Below the pieces are notes generated by a model, which was given only the letters and a program-made list of their open reading frames with translations, did not search any database and had not been told where the DNA came from. 64,000 nt of DNA from Azoarcus sp. CIB (GTDB lineage: Bacteria > Pseudomonadota > Gammaproteobacteria > Burkholderiales > Rhodocyclaceae): positions 2,542,001-2,606,000 of the forward strand of contig NZ_CP011072.1 of assembly GCF_001190925.1 (NCBI RefSeq), written 5' to 3'. The position numbers and the translations under genes were made by a program. Shown piece after piece: positions 47,304 to 62,082 of this stretch. The number at the start of each line of letters is the position of its first letter. The stretch's first letter is position 1.

Positions 47304-47741
47304 ATGGGAAGCCGCGATGCGTATGCCCGTGGCGATCAGGACGTCGTGGAAGACCCCGTGCTCGGACCGCACGAGATCGCCTTCATCGAAGCGCGCGACA
47401 GCTTCTACCTGGGGACGGTGAGCGAAACCGGATGGCCTTACGTCCAGCATCGCGGCGGGCCGACGGGTTTCCTCAAGGTGCTCGACCCGCGCACGATCGG
47501 GTTCGCCGACTTCAGCGGGAACCGGCAGTACGTCTCGGCGGGCAATCTGGCCGGCGACAATCGTGTCAGTCTGTTCCTGATGGACTATCCGCACCAGACG
47601 CGCCTGAAGATCCTGGGGCGGGCGCGGGTCGTCGACGAGGATAGCGAACCGGAATTGCTCGCACGCCTCGACAACCCGCATTACCGCGCACACGTCGAGC
47701 GCGGGATCGTGATCCGCAGTCGCACGAGCCGTCCGACATAG
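47304..47741 (+). pseudogene. truncated pyridoxamine 5'-phosphate oxidase family gene
   Basis: A 145-codon frame with the FMN-binding split barrel of small PPOX-family proteins: RDSFYLGTVSETGWPYVQHR, GFLKVLDPRTIGFADFSG, NRQYVSAGNLAGDNRVSLFL and the closing ERGIVIR. Family members continue into a conserved end of about 15 residues (FDWNCPQHI-like); here the frame ends in unrelated SRTSRPT. The N-terminus also looks short. Similarity breaks at about 47708, just where the ECF-linked region begins, so this is probably a gene cut by a rearrangement. Confidence 0.6.
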
Positions 47742-47837: not shown

Positions 47838-47866
47838 TTTGTCGTTTGCCGGCCACGCACCCTTAC
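47838..47866 (-). promoter_or_regulatory. ECF-type promoter motif (copy G)
   Basis: On the minus strand GTAAGG (47866-47861), 16 bases, CGACAAA (47844-47838). It has the same spacing as the other copies in the region. It points towards the PPOX break, where only a short open stub (about 40 codons) remains, so the gene it served may have been lost. Confidence 0.5.
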
Positions 47867-47876
47867 AGCGCACCTC

Positions 47877-49058
47877 ATGCAAAACACCGAGAAAGGCACG
47901 CCCACCGAAATCGTCCTCGTCGGGGGCGGGCACAGCCATGTCGAGGTGATCCGCCGCTTCGGACTGCGGCCCTTGCCGGCGGCGCGGCTCACGGTAATCT
48001 GCACGGATGCGCAAACGCCCTACTCCGGCATGCTTCCAGGCTATGTCGCGGGCCACTACGAAGCCGATGACATTCATATCGACCTGCCCCGCCTCGCCGA
48101 CTGGGCAGGTGTCCGTTTCGTGCAGGACGAGGTCGTGGGCATCGACCGCCAAGCGCGCACCGTGCGCTGTGCGTCCGGGCTGGAAATGCGCTACGACTAT
48201 CTCTCGCTCAACATCGGCTCCGCCCCGCGCATGGGTGACGTGGCAGCGGCCGATTCGCCGGCCGTGCCAGTGAAGCCGATCCGCAACTTTCGCAGGCGCT
48301 GGCTGGACTTGTTGCAGCGCGTATGCACGCACCGCGAGCCGAGCACGACGATCGCGGTGGTCGGCGCCGGTGCGGGCGGGGTCGAGCTGCTGCTGGCGAT
48401 GCAGCACCGCCTGCGCAGGGAGATTCGCGCGAGCGGCCGTCAGCCCGATCAGCTGCGCTTCCACCTGTTCACCAGCAGCGCGCAGATCCTGCCGACGCAC
48501 GCTGCGCGCGTCCGTGAGCGCTTCATGAGCGCGCTCGCCGAGCGCGGCGTCATGCTCCACCTCGGGGTCAAAGTCGGCCACGTACGCGGCGGGCACATCG
48601 AAACCCGCAATGGCGTGAGCGTCGATGCGGACGAGATCGTGTGGGTGACCCAGGCCGGGGGCGCGCCCTGGCTGCGCGATACCGGTCTGGCGCTCGATCC
48701 GGATGGCTTCGTCCAGGTCGATGACAACTTGCGCACCGTCTCCGACGAACGCATCTTCGCGGCTGGCGACGTTGCGAGCCTGGTAAGCCGGCCGCTCGCG
48801 AAGGCCGGCGTGTTCGCCGTCCGCCAGGGCCCGATCCTGGCGGAGAACCTGCGGCGTGCGGCCCTCGGTCAAGCGCTCCTGCGCTATCGCCCGCAGCGCC
48901 GCTGGCTGGCACTGATCACGACCGGGGAACGTTACGCGGTGGCCTCATGGGGGCCGCTCGGCGTCGCCGGCCACTGGGTGTGGCGGTGGAAGGACGCCAT
49001 CGACCGGCGCTTCATGGCGCGGTATCGGGAATTGCCGGCACGGCGGGCGAGCGCCTGA
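47877..49058 (+). CDS. FAD-dependent pyridine nucleotide-disulfide oxidoreductase (SelD-associated NDH-2-like)
   Basis: A 393-aa flavoprotein. EIVLVGGGHSHVEVIRRFG at the N-terminus, TPYSGMLPGYVAGHY, VVGAGAGGVELLLAM for NAD(P)H and IFAAGDVASL near the C-terminus identify the group that is often fused to, or adjacent to, selenide water dikinase. This copy has no SelD domain and no SelD gene beside it. No CxxC redox pair is seen. Relatives occur in rSAM/selenodomain (arsenosugar) clusters, which fits ArsM and ArsS next door on the other strand. Substrate unknown. Confidence 0.85.
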   Translation: MQNTEKGTPTEIVLVGGGHSHVEVIRRFGLRPLPAARLTVICTDAQTPYSGMLPGYVAGHYEADDIHIDLPRLADWAGVRFVQDEVVGIDRQARTVRCASGLEMRYDYLSLNIGSAPRMGDVAAADSPAVPVKPIRNFRRRWLDLLQRVCTHREPSTTIAVVGAGAGGVELLLAMQHRLRREIRASGRQPDQLRFHLFTSSAQILPTHAARVRERFMSALAERGVMLHLGVKVGHVRGGHIETRNGVSVDADEIVWVTQAGGAPWLRDTGLALDPDGFVQVDDNLRTVSDERIFAAGDVASLVSRPLAKAGVFAVRQGPILAENLRRAALGQALLRYRPQRRWLALITTGERYAVASWGPLGVAGHWVWRWKDAIDRRFMARYRELPARRASA

Positions 49059-49110
49059 GAATACATCCGTTCGCGCCGAGCCCGTCGCTTCAGGCCATCG
49101 CGGATGCCTC

Positions 49111-50157
49111 TCAGCAGCATGCGCCCCCCGCACCCGCCATGGTTTCCCGGTCGAAGGGGATCTGGCTGCCACAGCCTTCGAACAGCCCATAGTGCCGCTC
49201 GACGCTGCCGATGAAGTCGAAATGCTCGCGGAAACGCGACTCGGCGAGCATGCGCCAACTGTTGCCGCACACGGGAAAGACGCGCCCGGCCTCGATGTCG
49301 TGGTGCTTGTCGAGGCGGAAGCGCTGCGCCATCGTCGGCACCGTGCCGCGATAGATCACCGCTTGCCCGTAGTCCTCGCACTGCGGTTCGAGCCCGTCGA
49401 GCTTGAACAGGCGGTAAGTGGCCGAGTGGAAGCCGATGCCGGCCGCCCGCTCGGCGAGCGCGGGATCGGTGATCGCAATTGGCCGGTCCTCGACCAGACG
49501 CGGATCGCCGAAGCCATGGCGCTTGGCGAGCGCGATGAAGTCGCCCCAGTAGAGGGCGCCGCCGAGGCATTCGCCGTAGAGCAGCGGATCATTGCGCACC
49601 TGCGCCGGCACGCGGCGGTCGGCGTAGATGTCCGAGAAGTAGAACTCGCCGCCGGGTTTCAGCAGGCGGAACACTTCCCTCAGCACCGCGTCCTTGTCCG
49701 GCGAGAGATTCACGACGCAGTTCGAGACCACCACGTCGAAGCTCGCCTCGGGCAGCCCCAGTTCGTCGAGTTGTTCGATGTAGCCGAGCTTGAAATCCAC
49801 GTTGTCGCGCGCATGTCCGAAGGCTTCGCGATGATGGTCCCGGTGCCGCAGGGCGACTTCCAACTGCGCCTCGGTCATGTCCACGCCCACGACCTGCCCG
49901 TTCTCGCCGACCAGTTGCGACAGCACATACACATCCCGCCCCGTACCGCAGCCGAAATCCAGCACACGGCAGCCGTCGAGCAGCGGCGGACATACCAGCC
50001 CGCAGCCGTAGTAGCGCGACAGCACCTCGGGGTGCACGCGAGCGAGCAGCGGCTTGAGCCACGCCGGCATCTGGCTCGCGTCGCAGCACGCCGTGGTACG
50101 CAAGTCTTCGCTCGATTGCAGTGCCTTGCCGTAATAGTCCTTCACGATGTCATGCAT
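49111..50157 (-). CDS. arsM: arsenite S-adenosylmethionine methyltransferase ArsM
   Basis: A 348-aa methyltransferase. The SAM-binding motif is VLDFGCGTGRDVYVL, followed by a cysteine in VVSNCVVNLSPDK as in ArsM, a C-terminal CGNSWRMLAESRF region with HYGLFEGCG, and a terminal GACC. The several conserved cysteines, including the early TTACC, are the arsenite-binding thiols of the family. It methylates trivalent arsenic. It follows arsS by 50 bp on the same strand, the standard arsenosugar pair. Confidence 0.9.
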   Translation of the reverse strand: MHDIVKDYYGKALQSSEDLRTTACCDASQMPAWLKPLLARVHPEVLSRYYGCGLVCPPLLDGCRVLDFGCGTGRDVYVLSQLVGENGQVVGVDMTEAQLEVALRHRDHHREAFGHARDNVDFKLGYIEQLDELGLPEASFDVVVSNCVVNLSPDKDAVLREVFRLLKPGGEFYFSDIYADRRVPAQVRNDPLLYGECLGGALYWGDFIALAKRHGFGDPRLVEDRPIAITDPALAERAAGIGFHSATYRLFKLDGLEPQCEDYGQAVIYRGTVPTMAQRFRLDKHHDIEAGRVFPVCGNSWRMLAESRFREHFDFIGSVERHYGLFEGCGSQIPFDRETMAGAGGACC

Positions 50158-50207
50158 GACGCATCACTCCGAAGTGTCGAAATCGTTCGGATCCTGCAGG
50201 GTGGCCG

Positions 50208-51206
50208 TCAGGCCGCGCACTTCGCCGCTTCGGTTTCGCCGTCCGCGAGCGCGCCGCCGCAGCTCGACCCCTGCCCTGCCGTGCAGCCATAGCAATGGTC
50301 CGCGACGCGAATCGCACTGCCGGCCAGCATCGCAGCGGCCGCGTCACGGATGTGGAGCTGCGGGAGGGCCTCGCTCGCGATCGGCATGTCGAGCTGCTGG
50401 TTGAAGTCGCAGTCGTAGAGATAGCCCTGCCAGTCGACGCTGACGAGGCTGCGGCACATCACCGCCGCGAGGTTGTCGTCACGGTGCGCCTCGCGCAGCG
50501 TGTGCATGTAATCGTGGAACTGACCCTTCGAGACCAGCATGCTGCCGAAGCGCTTGATCGGCATGTTCGCGAGCGTGAAGAGCTGGTTGAAGCGGATGCC
50601 GAACTCGGCGCCGAGGTGCTCGCGATAGGCGCCCTCCAGCCTCGTCTGCGGCGGCGGCAGCACCGGCCCCTGCGGGTTATAGACGAGGTTCAACAGCAGT
50701 CCGCTGCCGACGGAGCCGTAACCCAGCGCGTTGAGCTTTTGCAGGCCGCGGATACTCGCGCCGAAAACGCCCTTTCCGCGCTGCCGGTCGACGTTGTCCT
50801 CGAGATAGCACGGCAGCGAAGCGGCGATCTCCACCCCCATCTCGGCGAGGAAGCGCGCCAGATCCTCGTAACCCGGCTCTTCGAGGATGGTCAGGTTGCA
50901 GCGGTCGATCACCCGCAGGCCGCGTGCACGCGCCGCCTTCACCAGCCGCGGGAAGTTCGCGTTCATCTCGGGCGCGCCGCCCGTCAGATCGAGCGTCCGC
51001 ACTGCCGGGCTCGCGTCGAGGAAGTCGATCACCGCATTGGCCGTCTCTTTGGTCATCTCCTCGCTACGATTCGGCCCGGCATTCACGTGGCAATGCACGC
51101 AGCTCTGGTTGCAGCGGTAACCGAGATTCACCTGCAGCGTCTCGATCGTCCCGCGCCGGATGCGCGGGAAGTCGGTGGCGGCGAGCAGCGGAAAGGTGGG
51201 GTGCAT
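50208..51206 (-). CDS. arsS: arsenosugar biosynthesis radical SAM protein ArsS
   Basis: A 332-aa radical SAM enzyme. The cluster motif is CNQSCVHCHV (CxxxCxxC, ~33-40), with LDLTGGAPEMN and a C-terminal Cys-rich segment CYGCTAGQGSSCGGA. In some relatives a selenocysteine occurs in that tail; here all codons are Cys. ArsS adds a 5'-deoxyadenosyl group to methylated arsenic to form the arsenosugar core. AGGAG supports the ATG at 51206. An ECF-type motif lies about 35 bp upstream of the likely transcript start. It forms an operon with arsM. Confidence 0.9.
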   Translation of the reverse strand: MHPTFPLLAATDFPRIRRGTIETLQVNLGYRCNQSCVHCHVNAGPNRSEEMTKETANAVIDFLDASPAVRTLDLTGGAPEMNANFPRLVKAARARGLRVIDRCNLTILEEPGYEDLARFLAEMGVEIAASLPCYLEDNVDRQRGKGVFGASIRGLQKLNALGYGSVGSGLLLNLVYNPQGPVLPPPQTRLEGAYREHLGAEFGIRFNQLFTLANMPIKRFGSMLVSKGQFHDYMHTLREAHRDDNLAAVMCRSLVSVDWQGYLYDCDFNQQLDMPIASEALPQLHIRDAAAAMLAGSAIRVADHCYGCTAGQGSSCGGALADGETEAAKCAA

Positions 51207-51247
51207 TCGAGGTGCTCCTGACGCAGTCGTTCTGTCGTTAATGGTGA

Positions 51248-51275
51248 ATAGTCGGCTTGGTGGGTCGATCCTTAC
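51248..51275 (-). promoter_or_regulatory. ECF-type promoter motif (copy E) upstream of arsS
   Basis: On the minus strand GTAAGG (51275-51270), 15 bases, CGACTAT (51254-51248). The spacer is one base shorter than in the plus-strand copies. The arsS start codon lies 42 bp downstream of the -10-like box, a normal leader length. Confidence 0.55.
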
Positions 51276-51364
51276 AACCGCAAGTATCGATTTTTTGTCG
51301 GGACAAGCGTGGCGAGGCAAAACGAGACGAAGAAACAGCAGATGCCGTTCGCCCTGAGCCGACA

Positions 51365-51631
51365 ATGAAATCCCTTCGACAGGACCTGTTCTCCAACGTC
51401 CGCAACGACCTGCTGGCTGGCCTCGTCGTCGCGCTGGCGCTGATTCCGGAGGCCATCGCCTTCTCCATCATCGCCGGCGTCGGTCCGAAAGTGGGCCGCG
51501 AGGGCGGACGTGCCGCCGATGTGCCTTCGGTGCCGAAGAGTGAGCCGGCGACGGCGGGAACGCTCCCGCTTGTAAGGATTCGAGGTCGTACCGCGACCAA
51601 GCAGAGGGAGCACATGCTGCATCCCGAATAA
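51365..51631 (+). pseudogene. N-terminal fragment of a SulP/SLC26 family anion transporter
   Basis: The frame opens [20 protein letters not shown] and continues [20 protein letters not shown], the N-terminus and first helix of SulP transporters. After about 43 residues similarity ends and an unrelated tail ([16 protein letters not shown]) follows. A full SulP gene would be ~500 codons or more, so only the 5' end remains. Its last codons (51614-51631) read MLHPE-stop just behind ECF motif A and after GAGGGAG, so a tiny leader peptide is conceivable but unproven. Confidence 0.65.
51572..51600 (+). promoter_or_regulatory. ECF-type promoter motif (copy A)
   Basis: TGTAAGG (GTAAGG at 51572-51577), 16 bases, CGACCAA (51594-51600). 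It precedes the NPCA-repeat peptide gene (ATG at 51675) and the pentaheme cytochrome. The motif is shared with copies B, C, D and F. Confidence 0.7.
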
Positions 51632-51674
51632 CGGACCGCCGCCGTTCCAATCATCAGACAGAGAGGCTTACCCG

Positions 51675-51881
51675 ATGAAAATGCTATCCCGCAAGACCGT
51701 TTCCCTCGGACTGGCTGCCTTGGCTTCCGCCGCGCTGGCACTCCCGGTTGCCGCAGCAAACCCTTGTGCGGCGAGTCCATGCGCCGCGAAGACGATGAAC
51801 CCTTGTGCAGCCAAGAACCCCTGCGCAACGAATCCCTGCGCAACAAACCCCTGCGCAACAAACCCCTGCGCGGCAAGGTAA
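51675..51881 (+). CDS. secreted Cys-rich [11 protein letters not shown] repeat peptide
   Basis: A 68-aa protein. Residues ~1-28 are a clear signal peptide (hydrophobic core ending LPVAAA). The mature part of ~40 residues is almost entirely repeats: [11 protein letters not shown], then NPCAAK and three NPCAT units, ending NPCAAR, giving seven cysteines. At the DNA level 15-bp units repeat in tandem. I know no named family for it. Regularly spaced thiols suggest binding of soft metal(loid)s such as As(III), Cu(I) or Hg, or disulfide cross-linking. GAGAGG precedes the ATG. It is followed after 6 bp by the pentaheme cytochrome gene. Confidence 0.8.
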
Positions 51882-51887
51882 TCGGCC

Positions 51888-53144
51888 ATGGCGATCGGGA
51901 ACGGGGGCGCTCGGGGGTTGCTCGTTGGATTCACGCTCGCGTTGACCGCCTGCGGTCCCGATCTCCGCTCGCCTCCCGTTCCGTCGCCAGCCGATCATGA
52001 ATCGTTTCTGGATCGGCACTGGCAACGCCCCCTCGCCCCCCAGGGAAGCGCGCCCGCTGCCTTCAGCCCGCAAGAGGCCTCACTCGACCCGGCCGCTTGC
52101 GGCCAGTGCCACCCGCAGCAGTTCGCCGACTGGCAGACCACCTTGCACAGCAAGGCGATGGGCCAGGGTCTCGTCGGCCAGTTGCAGGAGATGGACGCGG
52201 ACGCCGTCGAGGAACATCAAGCCTGTCTGCGCTGCCACGCCCCGCTCGCCGAGCAGGCCGCCGACCTGCAGCAAAGTCTTTCCGGCGCCTCCGATACGCC
52301 CTCTGCGCGGCCTGACGGCGCTGCCTTCACGCACGGCCTCAGCTGCGCCGGCTGTCATGTGCGCGAGCACCGTCGCCTGGGTCCGCCGCGGCGCGACGGC
52401 AGCGCTCCGGCGGCGGGCGACACCCTGCCCCACGGCGGCTGGCAGGTTGCCCCGGCCTTTACGGACTCGCGCTTTTGCGCCACCTGCCACCAGTTCGAGT
52501 CCGACGGCTACAGCCTCAATGGCAAGCTGCTCGAGAACACCTACGAGGAATGGCGGGCAAGCCGCCACGGCCGCGACAACCAGACCTGCCAGTCCTGCCA
52601 CATGCCCGACCGGCGCCACCTTTGGCGCGGCATCCACGACCCGGAAATGGTGAGATCGGGCCTGACGATCGAATTTTCGCAGCCCGCCACCGACACCAGA
52701 CACGTGCGGGCCGAACTCACGATCACCAGCCACGGCATCGGCCACGCCTTCCCGACCTACATCACGCCGCAAGTGATCGTCGACATCGGCCAGGCCGGTC
52801 CGGATGGTGCTTTCCTGCCGCAGACGGTGGAACGCCATCTGATCGCCCGCGACGTGAGCCTGGACCTTACCGAGGAACGCTCCGACACCCGCATCCTGCC
52901 CGACGAAATGCGCCGCTACGTGTACGAACAGCCGATTGCAGCCGGCGCGGCCGAGCTCGTCGCCCGCATCCGCGTCGAGCCCGACGCCTTCTACGCCGAG
53001 TTCTACCGCGCGACGCTGCGCGATGCGGGCTACACCAAGGGGCGTGCGGCGATCCGCGAGGCCCTGCGGCAGGCCGAACGCTCCGGCTACGTGCTGTACG
53101 AGTCGCGCCGGAATCTGATCGCTGCGGACCTGCCCAGCCGATGA
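51888..53144 (+). CDS. pentaheme c-type cytochrome (cytochrome c554-like), exported
   Basis: A 418-aa protein. The N-terminal signal has a lipobox-like LTAC near residue 20. Five CxxCH haem sites are visible: CGQCH, CLRCH, CAGCH, CATCH and CQSCH, all in residues ~65-245. The C-terminal ~170 residues are haem-free and beta-rich. The arrangement resembles the multihaem cytochrome c554 group, which moves electrons in the periplasm. It follows the NPCA peptide gene by 6 bp, so the two are co-expressed, probably from ECF motif A. Electron partners are unknown. Confidence 0.85.
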
Positions 53145-53340
53145 AAGGGGTAGAGGATGGTCGCCAAGCCGTCTACCACCAGTCGGCTCCCCCGCTGCCG
53201 ACCAGTTCCAGCACGAAATCGTGCAGGCGCACGAGGTCTCGCACGTCGTCGGTTCCCAAGCAGCGGCATCGGTGCGAGTGCGAGCGCCACCATGAGCACG
53301 AACCAAGATCCGCCGGTATTTTCGAGCCCGCTCTACATCA

Positions 53341-53368
53341 TTAGTCGCCGCGCCGGGTTCGCCCTTAC
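53341..53368 (-). promoter_or_regulatory. possible ECF-type promoter motif (copy H)
   Basis: On the minus strand GTAAGG (53368-53363), 15 bases, CGACTAA (53347-53341). It resembles copy E in spacing, but no intact gene lies downstream on that strand, so it may be fortuitous or left from a lost gene. Confidence 0.35.
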
Positions 53369-53406
53369 TGCGCCCGCCCCGCCCGATAAAAATTCCTGCC
53401 GGCCGT

Positions 53407-53435
53407 GTAAGGAAGCTGCTCCCTGCTACGACGAA
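53407..53435 (+). promoter_or_regulatory. ECF-type promoter motif (copy B)
   Basis: TGTAAGG (GTAAGG at 53407-53412), 16 bases, CGACGAA (53429-53435), about 70 bp before the ATG of the NPCA-repeat cytochrome. Confidence 0.7.
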
Positions 53436-53506
53436 CACGCATGACCTGTCGCTCACCGGATGGGTCGTGGGGCAAAAAACACCAACTTCACACGGAGGGA
53501 CATCCC

Positions 53507-54160
53507 ATGAAACACGCTTTGAAGAGTCGTACCGTCACCACGATGATTTCTGCCGGACTGCTGAGCGCCACGCTGGGCATGCCGCTCGCGGCCTTCGCAC
53601 AGGCCAACCCCTGCGCAGCGGGCACGCACACTTCGCGTGCCGCCAACCCCTGCGCCGCGAACCCGTGTGCGGCGAAGAACCCGTGCGCGGCCAAAAATCC
53701 CTGCGCAGCCAAGGCCATCCAGCGGCCCACCGGCTACAAGCCCTACAAGGGCGATCGTGCGGAGCTCGTGGCAGCTGGCAAGAAGCTCTTCTCCGATGCC
53801 AGCCTGTCGACAAACAACTCCTCATGCGCCACCTGCCACACCGGCTACGCCGCCTACAAGCAGAGCTTCGCGCAACCCTTCCCGCACAAGGTCGAGATGG
53901 CTGACGGCATGTACGGGATGAAGCAGATTCACCTCGATGAAATGGTGCAACTCTGCCTCGTCACGCCCATGGCCGGAAAACCCCTGAACTGGCAGTCCAG
54001 GGAGCTTGCGGCGCTGGTCGCCTATATGGAAGAGGAGCAGAAGGGCTTCAAGGCCAATCTCGCGAAGAACCCTTGCGCGGCAAAGAACCCGTGCGCGGCC
54101 CGGAACCCCTGCGCCGCGAAGAATCCATGCGCCGCAAAGAATCCATGCGCGGCGAAGTGA
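53507..54160 (+). CDS. NPCAAK-repeat monohaem c-type cytochrome
   Basis: A 217-aa exported protein. A signal peptide ends near AAFAQA. Then come five NPC units (NPCAAG, NPCAAN, NPCAAK x2 and variants), a cytochrome c domain with one haem site SCATCHTGY and a likely Met ligand in VTPMAGKPLNW, and a C-terminal tail of five more [12 protein letters not shown] units. A haem domain flanked by thiol repeats is unlike any family I know. GGAGGG precedes the ATG. The stop overlaps the GTG of the next gene (GTGA). The repeats link it to the 68-aa peptide at 51675; they probably share a ligand or partner. Confidence 0.8.
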   Translation: MKHALKSRTVTTMISAGLLSATLGMPLAAFAQANPCAAGTHTSRAANPCAANPCAAKNPCAAKNPCAAKAIQRPTGYKPYKGDRAELVAAGKKLFSDASLSTNNSSCATCHTGYAAYKQSFAQPFPHKVEMADGMYGMKQIHLDEMVQLCLVTPMAGKPLNWQSRELAALVAYMEEEQKGFKANLAKNPCAAKNPCAARNPCAAKNPCAAKNPCAAK

Positions 54161-54945
54161 GCACGGCCGACACCGCCGGGAACCCGACCGCCCCCTTCCC
54201 TGACGAAGGGGCGGTCGAACTTCTGACCGCCCCGGACCTTGCCGACTACCTGCCCAAACTCGAGAACCTCGACCGCGAGACCCGCCGCGCGCTGTTGCAG
54301 GCCGGACGGGAGGTGCTCGAGTGCCGCCGCGTCCTGAGCAAGGTCGGGCTCAACGTGGTCGGCGAGGTGCTGCGCGACCAGGGCGAGTTCGTCGAGATGG
54401 AGCACTATCCGCGCGACGATGTGTTCGACGCGGAGACCCACGCGCAGTACTACTACCACGCCCATCGCGGCGAGCTCGAACATGGGCATTTCCACACCTT
54501 CCTGCGCGCCGCAGGCATGCCCGACGGCGTCTGCCCCCTGCCCTTTGCGCGCGCCACCGAAGCATGGTCGGCCGGCAATGAGGCGATCAGCCATCTCATC
54601 GCGATCTCGATGGATGCTTGGGGCGAACCCATCGGGCTGTTTGCGTGCAACCGCTGGGTCACCGGCGAGACCTGGTACCCGGCCGAAGACGTGATCGGCA
54701 TGCTGGACCGCTTCGTGATCGACCACGCCTGGCCGTCGTGGCCGACCAACCGCTGGATCAGCGCGATGCTGCGCCTCTATCGTCCATGGATCGAGGGGCT
54801 GCTATGGCATCGCGATGCGGTGATTGCCGCCCACCCCAACGCACGTCCGGACGACGACGTCTTCGAGAACCGTACGCTCGAAATAACCGGCCTTCTTCCG
54901 ATTTCCGTCGATCGCCTCCTCGCAGCTCTCGCGGAATCCATCTGA
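54157..54945 (+). CDS. conserved protein of unknown function (possibly DUF6969)
   Basis: A 262-aa soluble protein starting with GTG that overlaps the preceding stop. No signal peptide or membrane helix. Notable residues include DAETHAQYYYHAHRGELEHGHFHTF (cited in parts: ETHAQYYYHAHRGE, then LEHGHFHTF), a His/Glu-rich segment that could bind metal, and WVTGETWYPAEDVIGMLDRF. From memory it resembles DUF6969, but I am unsure. Translational coupling to the NPCA cytochrome suggests a role in making, loading or modifying that protein. Confidence 0.6.
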   Translation: MSTADTAGNPTAPFPDEGAVELLTAPDLADYLPKLENLDRETRRALLQAGREVLECRRVLSKVGLNVVGEVLRDQGEFVEMEHYPRDDVFDAETHAQYYYHAHRGELEHGHFHTFLRAAGMPDGVCPLPFARATEAWSAGNEAISHLIAISMDAWGEPIGLFACNRWVTGETWYPAEDVIGMLDRFVIDHAWPSWPTNRWISAMLRLYRPWIEGLLWHRDAVIAAHPNARPDDDVFENRTLEITGLLPISVDRLLAALAESI

Positions 54946-54959
54946 AACTCCGCGCACGC

Positions 54960-54988
54960 GTAAGGTTTCGCGCCCCCGAAGCGACGAA
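54960..54988 (+). promoter_or_regulatory. ECF-type promoter motif (copy C) before the sigma factor operon
   Basis: GTAAGG (54960-54965), 16 bases, CGACGAA (54982-54988). It lies 20 bp before the start of the 37-aa peptide gene and upstream of the ECF sigma gene, consistent with autoregulation. The implied leader is very short. Confidence 0.65.
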
Positions 54989-55007
54989 TCCGGGAGGAGG
55001 CCACAAA

Positions 55008-55121
55008 ATGAACTTCAGGCATATGATCGGCAGGTGGATCAACCCTCTCCTGCAGCCCGGTTCTGGCGCGCACGGCCACGAGTTGCTCGCGAGTCTGCTG
55101 GTGATGGCTTGGAAAAAATAG
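55008..55121 (+). CDS. 37-aa small protein upstream of the sigma factor
   Basis: A short gene with a strong ribosome binding site (GGGAGGAGG, 54992-55000). The peptide has a basic N-terminal part (MNFRHMIGRWINPLL), a middle QPGSGAHGHE and a hydrophobic end LLASLLVMAWKK. It is followed after 19 bp by the sigma factor gene. It could be a leader or regulatory peptide or a membrane-associated partner of the anti-sigma factor. No family is recognised; reality as a gene rests on the ribosome binding site and position. Confidence 0.55.
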   Translation: MNFRHMIGRWINPLLQPGSGAHGHELLASLLVMAWKK

Positions 55122-55140
55122 GCGGGACGAGGAGCGAGCA

Positions 55141-55758
55141 ATGACGAACGGAAGTGCTGAAGCGACCAGGATCCTGTGGGACGACCCGTCGATCGTGGCA
55201 ATCCGGCGTGACATGCTGCGCTTTGCCCAACTGCAGCTGCGCGATGCGGGTGCCGCCGAGGACATGGTCCAGGAAGCACTGATCGCAGCCATGGACAGCG
55301 CCAAGAGCTTTGCCGGGCGGTCGGCCTTCAAGACCTGGATGTTCGGCATCCTGCGCCACAAGATCGTCGACCACCTCCGCGCCTCCTCGCGCGAAATCTG
55401 CGGCACGGATCTGGTCGCACAGGCCGATCCGCAGGCGGAGCTGAAGAATTTCGACGCGCTCTTCGACCAGCGCGGATTCTGGAACCCCGACGATCGCCCC
55501 GCCACCTGGACCGATCCCGACGCTTCCTTCTCGCAAAAGCAATTCTGGGAGATCTTCGATGCCTGCCTCGATCACCTGCCGGACCAGATTGCGCGCGTGT
55601 ACATGATGCGGGAGTTCCTCGACTTCGAGACAGCGGAAATCTGCCAGCAGCTGGGCATCACCAACGGCAACTGCTGGGTCATCCTGCACCGCGCACGCCT
55701 GGGGCTGCGCGAGTGCCTCGAAAATAACTGGTTCCAAGGGGAGGCAATCCAATGCTGA
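55141..55758 (+). CDS. ECF-type RNA polymerase sigma factor
   Basis: A 205-aa sigma-70 family protein. Region 2 is seen in FAQLQLRDAGAAEDMVQEAL and FKTWMFGILRHKIVDHLR; region 4 in CLDHLPDQIARVYMMREFL and ETAEICQQLGITNGNCWVIL. An insert of ~40 residues separates them. It has no region 1.1 or 3. GAGGAGCGAGC precedes the ATG. Its last 7 bp overlap the zinc-finger gene. The recurring GTAAGG-N16-CGACNAA motifs around it, including copy C upstream, make it the likely regulator of the whole cluster. Confidence 0.92.
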   Translation: MTNGSAEATRILWDDPSIVAIRRDMLRFAQLQLRDAGAAEDMVQEALIAAMDSAKSFAGRSAFKTWMFGILRHKIVDHLRASSREICGTDLVAQADPQAELKNFDALFDQRGFWNPDDRPATWTDPDASFSQKQFWEIFDACLDHLPDQIARVYMMREFLDFETAEICQQLGITNGNCWVILHRARLGLRECLENNWFQGEAIQC

Positions 55759-55943
55759 ACTGCAAGGAGGTCACCCGCCTCATGTCGGAAGGGTACGAAC
55801 GGAAGCTCACGCTCGGCGAGCGGCTTTCACTGAAGATGCACACGATGATGTGCATCGGCTGCACCAATTACGGCAAGCACATGGACTTTCTCCGCAAGGC
55901 GGCCAGGAGACTGCGCGAGGGAGGCGCTGGCGGCGAACGCTAA
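55752..55943 (+). CDS. zinc-finger anti-sigma factor (zf-HC2 type)
   Basis: A 63-aa soluble protein with the His/Cys zinc site of ZAS anti-sigma factors in KMHTMMCIGCTNYGKH, preceded by CKEVTRLMSEG. It lacks a membrane segment or sensor domain, so it is the minimal type that responds in the cytoplasm, for example by thiol oxidation or metal displacement. Overlap with the sigma gene by 7 bp indicates stoichiometric co-expression. It probably binds the sigma factor and releases it on stress. Confidence 0.85.
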   Translation: MLNCKEVTRLMSEGYERKLTLGERLSLKMHTMMCIGCTNYGKHMDFLRKAARRLREGGAGGER

Positions 55944-56063
55944 ACCCCGCGGCGCTCTCGCGGAGCTGCACGAGGGGATTCCCGCTGAACCCTGTCGGAC
56001 ATAGACAGCGGACGATCACACTTGGCAGCGCCGACCCGACCAGGGCGATCTGCTAGACCCTGA

Positions 56064-56339
56064 TCTCGCACGCGCGCCAGCCTGGTGCTGAGCGCCACCG
56101 GCGCCGCGCTCGCAGCCGGTCGCTGGTTTGTCCGCATTGATCTGCGTGCCGGCGTAACGATTGCCGCCGTCGCAGGCGGATTGCTGATGGGCTACGGTGC
56201 ACGCATCGGCTTCGGCTGCACCATCGGTGCTCTCCTTTCGGGGATCGCCTCCACCAGCCTGCACGGCTGGCTGTGGTTCGCGGCGGTGCTCCCCGGCATC
56301 TGGATCGGCACGAGGCGTCGTCGGGGTTTGGGCCTTTGA
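56064..56339 (+). pseudogene. C-terminal fragment of a YeeE/YedE family sulfur transporter
   Basis: The frame contains GGLLMGYGARIGFGCTIGAL, then LSGIASTSLHGWLWFAAVLP and GIWIGTRRRRG, the closing helices of YeeE/YedE (thiosulfate-type) transporters. An in-frame stop at 56061-56063 and the lack of upstream similarity show that the N-terminal part is missing (whole members are 140-400 aa). It lies between the anti-sigma gene and ECF motif D. Confidence 0.65.
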
Positions 56340-56354
56340 GGCCACGGCGAAGGT

Positions 56355-56383
56355 GTAAGGAATCGAGGATCTCCCGCGACCAA
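56355..56383 (+). promoter_or_regulatory. ECF-type promoter motif (copy D)
   Basis: TGTAAGG (GTAAGG at 56355-56360), 16 bases, CGACCAA (56377-56383), directly before the TVP38-FAD reductase fusion gene. Confidence 0.7.
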
Positions 56384-56397
56384 GTCAGGAGGGGCAA

Positions 56398-58668
56398 TTG
56401 CGCCAGCTACGCCACATGGGTCTATACAAGATGAAAACGAACCGACTTCTCCTGCTCGCTGCGATTGCCCTGACAACACTGATGTTCTTTGCCTTCGATC
56501 TCGACCGCTACCTCAGCCTCGAGTTCTTCAAGGCACAGCAGACCGCCATCGAGGTGTGGCGCGATGCGCGCCCCCTCGCCGCTGCGGCGGCTTTCTTTGT
56601 CATCTACGTCGCAGTCACCGGCCTGTCCCTGCCCGGCGCGGCGATCATGACGCTCGCCGGCGGCGCAATCTTCGGGCTGTGGGCAGGATTGCTGATCGTC
56701 TCCTTCGCCTCGACGCTGGGCGCCACCCTCGCCTTCCTCGCTTCGCGCTTCATCCTGCGCGATACGGTGCAGGCGCGCTTTGGCGAACGGCTGCGCGCGA
56801 TCAACGCGGGGATCGAGAAGGAAGGCGCCCTATACCTATTCACACTGCGCCTGGTGCCGGTGTTTCCGTTCTTCGTCATCAACCTGGTGATGGGGCTCAC
56901 GCCGATCCGCACCTGGACGTTCTATTGGGTGAGCCAGGTGGGCATGCTCGCCGGCACCGTCGTATATGTGAACGCCGGCACCCAGCTCGCACAGATCGAC
57001 TCGCTGTCGGGCATCCTCTCGCCCGCCCTGCTCGCCTCCTTCGCACTCCTCGGCGTATTCCCGCTGATCGCGAAGAAGCTCGTCGAGATGGTGAAGGCGC
57101 GGAAAATCTACGCCGGCTGGAAGAAGCCGGCCCACTTCGACCGCAATCTGGTGGTCATCGGTGCCGGCGCGGCCGGGCTGGTGAGCAGCTACATCGCCGC
57201 CGCAGTGAAGGCGAAGGTGACCCTGGTCGAAAAACACAAGCTGGGCGGCGACTGCCTGAATACCGGCTGTGTGCCGTCGAAGGCGCTGATCCGCTCGGCG
57301 AAGCTGCTGTCGCACATGCGGCGCTCGCAGGAATTCGGCATTCGCTCCGCCCGCGCGGAGTTCGACTTCGCCGACGTGATGGAACGCGTGCATTCGATCA
57401 TCAAGACCGTCGAGCCGCACGATTCGATCGAGCGCTACACCGGGCTTGGCGTCGAGGTGATCGAGGGCCGGGCGAAGATCGTCTCGCCCTGGGAAGTGGA
57501 AATCGCACGTAACGACGGCGGGCACGAGACGCTCACCACGCGCAGCATCATCATCGCGGCCGGCGCCCGCCCCCACGTGCCGCCGATTCCCGGCATCGAG
57601 GACGTCGGCTACTACACCTCGGACACGATCTGGACCCTGCGCGCCCTGCCCCGCCGCCTGCTCGTGCTCGGCGGCGGTCCGATCGGTTCCGAACTGACGC
57701 AGACCTTTGCCCGCTTCGGTGCGGCGGTGACCCTGATCGTGAAGGGCGAGCGGATCATGCCGCGCGAGGATGCGGAGGTCTCCGAGATGGTGATGGCACG
57801 CTTCCGCGCCGAAGGCATCGACCTGCGCACCGGCCACGACACCCGGCGTTTCGTCGTCGAGAATGGCGAGAAGATCCTGATTGCCGGACACAATGGGCAG
57901 GACGTCCGCATCCCCTTCGACGTGCTGCTGGTTGCCGTCGGGCGGTCCGCGCAATTGAAGGGCTACGGCCTGGAGGAACTGGGCATTCCGACCGGACGCA
58001 CGATCGAGGTCAATGAATACCTGCAGACGAGCTTTCCGAACATCTACGCCGCAGGCGATGTCGCCGGTCCGTATCAATTCACCCACACCGCCGCCCATCA
58101 GGCCTGGTATGCGTCGGTGAATGCGCTGTTCGCACCGTTCAAGAAATTCCGGGCCGACTATTCGGCGGTGCCGTGGGCGACCTTCGTCGACCCGGAAGTG
58201 GCACGCGTGGGTCTCAACGAGCAGGAAGCCCGGGCGCGCAACATCCCCTTCGAACTCACCCGCTTCGACATCGCGGATCTCGACCGCGCCATCGCCGACG
58301 GCGAGGCGCATGGCTTCGTCAAGGTGCTCACCGTGCCCGGCAAGGACAAGATCCTCGGCGTCACGATCGTCGGCGAGCACGCCGGCGACCTGATCGCCGA
58401 ATACGTGATGGCGATGCGCCACGGACTAGGGCTCAACAAGATCCTCGGCACCATCCACATCTACCCGACGCTCGCGGAAGCGAACAAGTACGCGGCCGGC
58501 GAATGGAAACGCGCCCATGCGCCGCAAAAACTGCTCGAATGGGTCGGGCGATTCCACGACTGGCGCCGTTCGGCAAGGGGCGCCGCGCGGCCCGTTTGCG
58601 ATACCGGACGTATCGCCCGAACCGAATCGACGGCCTATAAGGAAACCGGGGCTTGCGGCGACCAATGA
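56398..58668 (+). CDS. TVP38/TMEM64 membrane domain fused to a mercuric reductase-like FAD oxidoreductase
   Basis: A 756-aa protein. Residues ~15-235 are a TVP38/VTT membrane domain (YVAVTGLSLPGAAIMTLAGG; FRLVPVFPFF-like LRLVPVFPFFVINLVMGL). Residues ~245-715 are a class I disulfide oxidoreductase with FAD motif VVIGAGAAGLV, redox pair GGDCLNTGCVPSKAL, NAD(P)H motif LGGGPIGSELTQ, and catalytic HIYPTLAEA. The Cys-rich N-terminal tail of MerA is absent. The TTG at 56398 is chosen because AGGAGG lies five bases upstream; ATG codons at 56416 and 56431 are alternatives. Such fusions accompany arsenosugar clusters. Confidence 0.88.
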   Translation: MRQLRHMGLYKMKTNRLLLLAAIALTTLMFFAFDLDRYLSLEFFKAQQTAIEVWRDARPLAAAAAFFVIYVAVTGLSLPGAAIMTLAGGAIFGLWAGLLIVSFASTLGATLAFLASRFILRDTVQARFGERLRAINAGIEKEGALYLFTLRLVPVFPFFVINLVMGLTPIRTWTFYWVSQVGMLAGTVVYVNAGTQLAQIDSLSGILSPALLASFALLGVFPLIAKKLVEMVKARKIYAGWKKPAHFDRNLVVIGAGAAGLVSSYIAAAVKAKVTLVEKHKLGGDCLNTGCVPSKALIRSAKLLSHMRRSQEFGIRSARAEFDFADVMERVHSIIKTVEPHDSIERYTGLGVEVIEGRAKIVSPWEVEIARNDGGHETLTTRSIIIAAGARPHVPPIPGIEDVGYYTSDTIWTLRALPRRLLVLGGGPIGSELTQTFARFGAAVTLIVKGERIMPREDAEVSEMVMARFRAEGIDLRTGHDTRRFVVENGEKILIAGHNGQDVRIPFDVLLVAVGRSAQLKGYGLEELGIPTGRTIEVNEYLQTSFPNIYAAGDVAGPYQFTHTAAHQAWYASVNALFAPFKKFRADYSAVPWATFVDPEVARVGLNEQEARARNIPFELTRFDIADLDRAIADGEAHGFVKVLTVPGKDKILGVTIVGEHAGDLIAEYVMAMRHGLGLNKILGTIHIYPTLAEANKYAAGEWKRAHAPQKLLEWVGRFHDWRRSARGAARPVCDTGRIARTESTAYKETGACGDQ
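58637..58665 (+). promoter_or_regulatory. ECF-type promoter motif (copy F)
   Basis: TATAAGG (ATAAGG at 58637-58642), 16 bases, CGACCAA (58659-58665). It lies inside the 3' end of the TVP38-FAD gene and 37 bp before the glycosyltransferase start, so it can drive the downstream three-gene operon. Confidence 0.6.
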
Positions 58669-60950: not shown

Positions 60951-62082
60951 GAGTGCGGTCAACGACGTTGCGCGGTTTCAGGCTCATCCGCACGAATTCG
61001 TGCTTGTAGGGCGACTCGCCCACCTTGGTCACGACGCCGCGTCCGAGCTTGTAGCGGTAGTTGTTGGTCATCGGATCGGGCACCGATGATCTAAATCCGT
61101 GATTCGATTCGTTCCTGCCAGGGCCAAGCCAGAGTCCCGAGCGAGCGGGCTTCAGGAGTGCGACGTCAGGGCCATCGACGCCTGCCATGCAATCGACGGT
61201 GCGACCGCGCGGTTTCTCTCCCCTGCCTTGTCGTGATTTGCGCGCCGTCGCATCCCTCCATCGGCAGGTTCGCATCGCGATGCTCATACCGGCGCATAGG
61301 ACAACGGATTGTTCGGTCCGCGGATCTTGCACATTTGAGGATACGAACGTTGTCCGCCGGGTGATGCGGCATATGCCTTAGGCGTATTCAAGGAGACAAA
61401 CCGCGCAGAACGCGTGGCGACTGGAATTGCACCGTTGCGCCCCCTATCCGGGGAATACGCATCCAGTGCTCAACACAACCGAACAAAGCACTTGCGTGAC
61501 TTTCTGCAATATGCCTTTGGCTTACCTAAGAATCGTAAGTCCTTGAATATATAAGGTGCCATACCGGGATAGAACCGGTGACAGCTGGAGCCACACTCAC
61601 CGACGCTTTTCTTTTAAATCAGTACGTTAAGTTAATTTCTGATCTACAAAATCCCGCCAACTACCCCCTTGAAAGCCGCATCAGTGCTAAAGCCTTAGCC
61701 GTTTTGTAGAACGGTTTCGATTGATGACAATGCCCTCAATTTTTCCGCCAATCAATGCTAATTTCCCTTGCGCAAGGCCAGACTGTTCATCGCAAATGCG
61801 AAGCCTACGGTGCGTCTCCACGTTAGCCGGCGGGATCGACAGCCGTGATGCCCGCTGCGGCGCCGGCTCTTCTCCCACCTGCTCGTTCGACAGGCGCGCG
61901 CGCAAACAACCGGACCGAGTGATTGACTGGCCCTGTACCGAATCGCACTCATCACTGCATGACTCAGCCAACTCAGCGACACTCATCCGGGGCACGAGCG
62001 GAACGGCGGCAGCCCGTCTCTGCCACTGCTCCCACGCTTGACATTATTCCCCGAACGTCTCGAATCGACTGTCTTTGTCTTC
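60951..62082. other. region without confident genes, partly AT-rich
   Basis: Open frames exist but none is convincing. A minus-strand frame opening at 61071 (MTNNYRYKLGRGVVTKVGE) looks protein-like for about 38 codons and then runs antisense through DUF3047. Another minus frame (61687-61995, 102 codons) has no known relatives. The stretch 61480-61720 is visibly AT-richer than the rest of the window and contains short stem-loops. Confidence 0.4.

Follow-up and report, generated by a model that had tools for sequence, protein, structure and literature searches.

A putative autoregulated ECF sigma factor regulon, partly decayed by deletions, in Azoarcus sp. CIB

A stretch of 64,000 nucleotides of the Azoarcus sp. 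CIB genome (contig NZ_CP011072.1, positions 2,542,001 to 2,606,000; hereafter the window) contains a 10.8-kb island in which a two-box promoter motif recurs around the genes of an extracytoplasmic function (ECF) sigma factor and its anti-sigma factor. On the basis of sequence comparison, the window very probably holds an autoregulated ECF regulon of the Neisseria sigmaE / Haemophilus RpoE2 kind, which has been partly decayed by deletions. This type of regulon is already known; the content found here is not described in the literature, as far as our searches went.

Six copies of RTAAGG-N16-CGACNAA were found in the window, one on the minus strand (47838-47866) and five on the plus strand (51572-51600, 53407-53435, 54960-54988, 56355-56383 and 58637-58665, the last with ATAAGG). 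The chance expectation from 100 shuffles was 0.00. Two copies with a 15-base spacer lie on the minus strand at 51248-51275 and 53341-53368, and the -10 box of the former reads CGACTAT, not CGACNAA. An earlier reading of the window from its letters only (hereafter the sequence-only reading) had reported the same eight sites, six N16 and two N15, at these positions. In the single-contig genome of 5,257,030 bases, the exact N16 motif occurs only as the six island copies. With a spacer of 15 or 16 bases and CGACNAA, seven copies were found in the genome, all seven within the island. The loose motif RTAAGG-N15-17-CGAC occurs 26 times genome-wide, and 8 of these copies are inside the island (binomial probability 5e-16). 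The sequence-only reading had proposed such a scan as a check on its claim; a similar density genome-wide was not seen. Among the 18 loose matches outside the island, 11 are intragenic, including the one with the top score (18.7 bits). With one mismatch allowed in the N16 motif, the genome gave 34 matches (the six exact ones included) against 30 for the reversed pattern.

A two-box matrix was then trained on 52 sites of relatives, none of them from the Azoarcus sp. CIB genome. Since these training sites were picked by the consensus itself, the matrix is not blind to the consensus. On the window it returned exactly the eight sites (19.3-28.5 bits) and nothing further above 12 bits. The reversed-window control gave two matches above 12 bits, with a maximum of 13.7.

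The sigma factor gene (55141-55758, plus strand) encodes 205 amino acids and belongs to the TIGR02943 / NF009184 family of curated models, with 278.2 bits for NF009184 (cut-off 276) and 252 bits for TIGR02943 (cut-off 162.2). It encodes the one protein of the genome above the TIGR02943 cut-off. The anti-sigma factor gene (55752-55943, plus strand) encodes a ZAS-type protein of 63 amino acids with the pattern C4-x25-H30-x3-C34-x2-C37 (NF052368, 76.7 bits, cut-off 50). All 77 aligned rows have the ligand residues H30, C34 and C37; C4 is found in 74 of them, the other three having a gap. The gonococcal sigma factor is 38% identical to that of the window, and the gonococcal pair passes the same NCBIfam models as the window pair. 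In the sigma factor tree, the gonococcal row is placed next to the 90 other rows of the family; its branch is long, and its placement is therefore unsure. A PDB search with the sigma factor profile returned 16 sequences, all labelled sigma factors and none close; the PDB search with the anti-sigma factor profile gave no match. A motif copy lies ahead of the sigma operon both in the window (54960) and in relatives, and the operon may be autoregulated. Counting the window, this pair is found in seven genomes, and in the six relatives with an intact HD-domain gene the orthologous site lies 18-20 nucleotides before that gene.

Most of what is known of sigmaE/MseR-type systems comes from Neisseria and Haemophilus, where they have few targets. 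The Neisseria sigmaE (NMB2144)-MseR pair and the window pair belong to the same curated sigma and anti-sigma families and have the ZAS ligands in common. The Neisseria sigmaE promoter has been published as GTMAGBWTT - 12-13 nt - CGTCTAAH, the sigmaE-MseR operon is described as autoregulated, and MseR is described as an anti-sigma factor of the ZAS type with a role for Cys4 (PMC2893595). Counted from GTAAGG, this consensus becomes GTAAGG-N15/16-CGTCTAA. The window sites share the -35 core and the geometry with it, but their -10 box is CGACNAA, with A for T, and they keep only part of the WTT that follows the -35 core. In the gonococcal sigma operon, GTCAGT-N15-CGTCTAA was found 34 nucleotides before the DoxX start.

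The relation between the sites and the sigma factor was analyzed in 17 genomes of the genus, where a close sigma factor was defined by an identity of at least 65%. Ten of the 17 genomes carry a close sigma factor, intact in nine and represented only by C-terminal fragments in the tenth (G008). These ten genomes hold 3-9 N15/16-CGACNAA sites each, 59 in total against 17 in the reversed control. The seven genomes without a close sigma factor hold at most one site each (0-1), two in total against 12 in the control; in five of these seven, a sigma factor is present that is 49-53% identical and falls in another branch of the family. Outside the genus, most genomes had few sites, at about the level of the control.

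Site-gene pairs were surveyed with genes called by a custom script and with distances taken as coordinate differences. The gene arsS has an upstream site in 10 genomes counting the window, 30-43 nucleotides before the gene, and DUF3179-type genes have one in four genomes, 40-43 nucleotides before. Other recurring site-linked genes are NPCA genes (encoding proteins with NPCA repeats, described below), the TVP38-FAD gene, a TIGR04283-type glycosyltransferase gene and a CzcE gene. DUF2282 genes carry the upstream motif in several relatives. In more distant genomes, the site was found ahead of a DUF2282 bufferin gene, of MsrA genes and of MsrP-like genes (the MsrP label was given to a molybdopterin oxidoreductase); these distant loci yield no base rate because they were fetched for holding a site. 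A separate site lies 61 nucleotides before the gene of a 703-amino-acid protein in G075 (L081 5166-7277), which may be OvoA-like.

A less selected test was made on 61 named loci found by the sigma factor alone, with 1247 genes having at least 100 upstream bases. An upstream site above 16 bits was found for 34 of the 228 genes of 17 sigma-linked families and for 11 of the 1019 others; the families were named after their recurrence near the sigma factor had been seen, and the threshold was set after the ranking had been seen. By family, sites were found for anti-sigma (12/47, the sites lying within the sigma gene), sigma (4/60), DoxX (5/18, from two clusters), DUF2282 (3/10), TVP38-FAD (3/11), ArsM (2/7), a SelD-N-like oxidoreductase (2/5), ArsS (1/6), TIGR04283 (1/8) and TIGR04282 (1/6). 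No site above 16 bits was found in these loci for MNIO (0/17), DUF2063 (0/16), the EGKCG peptide (0/6), peroxidase-like (0/6) and YiiX-like genes (0/5). For the MNIO, DoxX, DUF2063 and YiiX-like labels one member each was scanned; the ArsS, TVP38-FAD and DUF2282 labels match plasmid annotation, and the remaining labels were given by eye. The proposal of the sequence-only reading that the sigma factor at 55141 controls all these units as one regulon is supported by cross-genome co-occurrence, by the published promoter of the family and by the conserved site-gene pairs.

In other genera, a motif-like copy was seen within the 3' end of the sigma gene (L126, L132, L149, L152, L156, L159, L162-L166, L172 and others), where the codons of region 4.2 specify CKExxITxTN-like residues; the copy lies about 50-160 nucleotides before the anti-sigma start. 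These copies were initially regarded as a coding coincidence, a view contradicted by a synonymous-codon test (p<0.05 in 19 of 59 genes, combined 4e-8). Since the loci are related, this result is not independent evidence. The intragenic copy may allow sigma-driven transcription of the anti-sigma gene alone. No intragenic copy was seen in the window's own sigma gene.

The sequence-only reading had also named the genes behind the sites. No intact gene was found behind 47866 (-), and arsS is served by the site at 51275 (-). The site at 51572 lies 74 nucleotides before the ATG of an exported NPCA-repeat peptide of 68 amino acids (51675-51881, plus strand), which has a signal-like start by eye and site-linked homologues in relatives. 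The next gene (51888-53144, plus strand) encodes a multiheme cytochrome c of 418 amino acids with five CxxCH motifs by eye and with Cytochrome_C554 and MtrC/MtrF-like matches. The site at 53407 lies 71 nucleotides before the likely ATG, at 53507, of a SoxA/TsdA-type monoheme cytochrome whose two ends carry NPCA repeats (53507-54160, plus strand; PF21342); a DUF6969 gene of uncertain start lies 3' of it (54133-54945, plus strand; PF22308, E 8.9e-84). On the minus strand, the N15 site at 51275 lies 41 nucleotides before arsS (50208-51206; radical SAM / DUF3641; PF12345, PF04055). The arsM-like methyltransferase gene (49111-50157, minus strand) has as its best NCBIfam match NF008823, arsenite methyltransferase, at 170.6 bits, below the cut-off of 263. 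The site at 56355 lies 47 nucleotides before the ATG (56431) of a fusion of VTT (TVP38) with a pyridine nucleotide-disulphide reductase, the TVP38-FAD reductase (56431-58668, plus strand; PF09335, PF07992, PF02852). The site at 58637, which is embedded in the 3' part of the gene before it, as is also the case in the relative G003, lies 37 nucleotides before the ATG (58703) of the first of two arsenosugar biosynthesis glycosyltransferase genes on the plus strand, TIGR04283 (58703-59374; 273.3 bits, cut-off 182) and TIGR04282 (59371-60099; 198.9 bits, cut-off 134). The arsenosugar genes and the TVP38-FAD reductase gene are, as judged from their sites, members of the regulon.

The decay of the island was analyzed with G003 as the reference, whose sigma factor is 98% identical to that of the window. 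Relative to G003, the island has been shortened by several deletions. The operon of G003 has the order site, HD gene (313 amino acids), NrtS-like gene, sigma, anti-sigma; the intact HD gene matches Pfam HD_5, and the NrtS match has 28.1 bits (cut-off 25). In the window, about 1.05 kb has been lost from this operon, the NrtS-like gene included. Comparison with relatives showed that the open reading frame (ORF) of 37 amino acids at 55008-55121 (plus strand), which had been taken for a peptide gene behind 54960, is the N-terminal remnant of the deleted HD-domain gene. The site at 54960 is still followed by sigma and anti-sigma, the first two genes of the operon being lost. The N15 site at 53341-53368 (-) is an orphan promoter motif, the DUF3179-type target of which is deleted here and kept in four relatives (identity scanned on the L063 member). 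The N16 site at 47838-47866 (-) is likewise an orphan; it is followed by the start of a small ORF that then breaks off. The nearly identical site of G005 stands ahead of an ORF of 68 amino acids, without NCBIfam match, and then a YeeE-like ORF (by eye). A SulP sulfate permease of 491 amino acids in G003 is reduced to a remnant at 51365-51631 (plus strand; PF00916, E 4.6e-06, and synteny), and a YeeE-type sulfur transporter of 385 amino acids in G003 to a C-terminal remnant at 56085-56339 (plus strand; PF04143, positions 240-310 of 310, and synteny). The left half of the site at 56355 resembles one G003 promoter and its right half the next (by eye), which suggests that this site arose by a deletion between two neighbouring promoters. 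The deletions could in principle be assembly errors. Such orphan promoters facing deleted genes would be a natural record of regulon decay.

In G008, the locus L069 (5694-10663) contains one sigma fragment behind the start of the HD gene and one behind DUF6969, together with a short NPCA gene and an arsS of 246 amino acids. Judged by its gene remnants, this locus is a second decay of the same island.

Several observations weigh against an autoregulated regulon as proposed here. Two intergenic loose sites beyond the island, L021 and L026, score 17.7 and 17.2 bits; the end of the former touches a start codon and the latter lies 127 nucleotides 5' of a gene. They may be weak regulon members or chance matches. 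In the 61 loci, 194 of the 228 sigma-linked genes have no site above the threshold and the sigma gene itself has one in only 4 of 60 cases; other lineages would therefore rely on variant promoters, on transcription from an operon promoter or on neither. Unlike the known regulons, the island showed no msr gene among its targets, in a genome whose msr genes were not searched as such. In the meningococcal study, oxidative stimuli left expression of the system unchanged (PMC2893595), and the Haemophilus system is reported to be inducible by HOCl, H2O2 and paraquat (PMC7907618). Because these results differ, the inducing signal is uncertain. Finally, G006 retains the arsS site without a family sigma factor above the cut-off, and G008 retains four sites with only two C-terminal sigma fragments, which lie behind other genes. 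Since sites thus outlast an intact sigma factor, since other sigma-like genes are present in the Azoarcus sp. CIB genome, and since the site-sigma link is drawn from sequence evidence, the motif might belong to another regulator or another sigma factor, its nearness to the sigma gene being incidental. We consider this improbable, because the two-box form with 15/16 spacing is the published promoter of this sigma family, the site number tracks the presence of a close sigma factor within one genus, and a site stands ahead of the sigma operon in seven genomes.

A somewhat more serious alternative, though still unlikely, is that the regulon is a relic, in which the sites and the sigma factor persist after the deletions made it useless in this strain. 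HD/NrtS, DUF3179, SulP, YeeE and the small ORF behind 47866 are indeed truncated or gone, and the genus-mate G008 is without an intact sigma factor. However, open frames are kept for sigma, anti-sigma, the NPCA genes, arsS, arsM, TVP38-FAD and both glycosyltransferases, the promoter boxes are intact, and the sigma factor has remained 98% identical to that of G003. It is very hard to believe that one repeat gave rise to all the sites through duplication of promoter-gene units, so that they would be alike by common origin rather than by function. The two NPCA genes could be paralogues and rearrangement is evident in the island, but the spacers and flanks differ outside the two boxes, unrelated gene families in unrelated genomes carry the site, and in distant orthologues the boxes are conserved where the flanks have diverged.

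If the sites serve an autoregulated regulon of this sigma factor, the following mechanism can be proposed. By analogy with the family, the small cytoplasmic anti-sigma factor would bind zinc via C4, H30, C34 and C37 and keep the sigma factor inactive. Thiol-attacking envelope stress would lift this block, the candidates being hypochlorite-like oxidants, copper, mercury and arsenic; zinc release or thiol oxidation may be the switch. The free sigma factor would direct RNA polymerase to GTAAGG-N15/16-CGACNAA promoters, a step strongly supported by the site data. The sites would drive the sigma operon together with the NPCA peptide, the NPCA-tailed cytochrome, the multiheme cytochrome, the TVP38-FAD reductase, arsS/arsM and the two arsenosugar glycosyltransferases, and the purpose of this set would be envelope thiol and metal defence. 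Several deletions have shrunk the island to its present form, with three target genes reduced to stubs or missing behind intact promoters and with sigma, anti-sigma and the other targets remaining.

The Azospira SigF/NrsF - MrpX/YedY1 hypochlorite system resembles the window regulon in that an ECF sigma factor controls a periplasmic scavenger peptide; it differs in the NrsF type of its anti-sigma factor and in its peptide, which is methionine-rich and not a cysteine-repeat peptide. The Neisseria regulon is small. Besides msrA/msrB it comprises the sigma operon, whose genes in the gonococcus encode DoxX, an EGKCG-type peptide (by eye), MNIO and DUF2063. The window regulon instead comprises NPCA proteins, cytochromes and arsenosugar genes, in a genome without an MNIO match. 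Haemophilus influenzae RpoE2-HrsE is likewise an ECF sigma factor with a ZAS anti-sigma factor (67 amino acids) that serves the repair of oxidative damage in the envelope, but it controls msrAB, mtsZ, a DMT transporter and a DoxX cluster (PMC7907618); the likeness is by description, not by sequence. The window regulon would extend this sigma/anti-sigma system to a many-target island in environmental proteobacteria, and it supplies a searchable promoter rule.

NPCA proteins were searched for in 300 genomes of the order with a DNA pattern for a 10-letter protein string. Matches were found in 9 of the 300 genomes, from seven genera and six families, and the proteins recur in two forms, either as a free peptide or as an NPCA-repeat cytochrome with one heme. 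All nine genomes have a sigma factor above the TIGR02943 cut-off, against 121 of the 300 overall (hypergeometric probability 2e-4). Six of the nine (G000, G059, G130, G162, G179, G297) have an NPCA gene that is immediately preceded by a site of 20-29 bits, and NPCA-cytochromes with an upstream site also occur in other families. In G084, the site is about 580 nucleotides upstream, with no same-strand ORF of at least 60 amino acids between, and G139 has only a weak site (15.9 bits), located within the sigma gene that precedes its NPCA gene. No site was found at the G095 NPCA locus or on the second NPCA contig of G179. Reversed controls for 13 NPCA loci gave one 13.1-bit match in each of two loci, both from Azoarcus sp. 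CIB. These observations point to an exported cysteine-repeat protein family so far found only in genomes with a TIGR02943-family sigma factor (9/9).

The NPCA peptide resembles the bufferins (DUF2282/EGKCG peptides with MNIO) in being a small exported peptide containing cysteine, but it (51675-51878) has no Pfam match, DUF2282 included. The MNIO model PF05114 gave no match in the Azoarcus sp. CIB genome and was matched in 2 of 14 control genomes. The idea that the NPCA peptides are MNIO-modified bufferins was therefore rejected for Azoarcus sp. CIB. The string NPCAAK gave no match in the literature searched. To our knowledge, the purpose of arsenosugar genes in bacteria is unclear, and the proposed regulon would place them within an envelope stress response. 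We tentatively suggest, as a reading slightly less likely than not, that NPCA proteins, in their two forms, are a new family of envelope thiol/metal buffers replacing bufferins in MseR-type regulons, and that arsenosugar synthesis belongs to this stress response as one of its branches and is not an ordinary arsenic-resistance operon.

A similar neighbourhood was seen on an Acinetobacter portensis plasmid (L195), with SulP, a universal stress protein, sigma, anti-sigma, thioredoxin, YiiX, arsS and TVP38-FAD, and with a motif copy having GTAAGA ahead of arsS; the module therefore also occurs on plasmids. At the edge of the island, a PNPOx-like ORF (145 amino acids, 47304-47741) ends near the break of the small ORF behind 47866 (-). 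Both ORFs may thus have been cut by one deletion. Beside the island, 127 bases of the window (60957-61083) match the 3' end of the G003 gene at 88282-90960 and also the arsenate reductase (azurin) large subunit gene annotated on an Azonexus plasmid. This piece is probably the remnant of a lost arsenite-oxidase operon.

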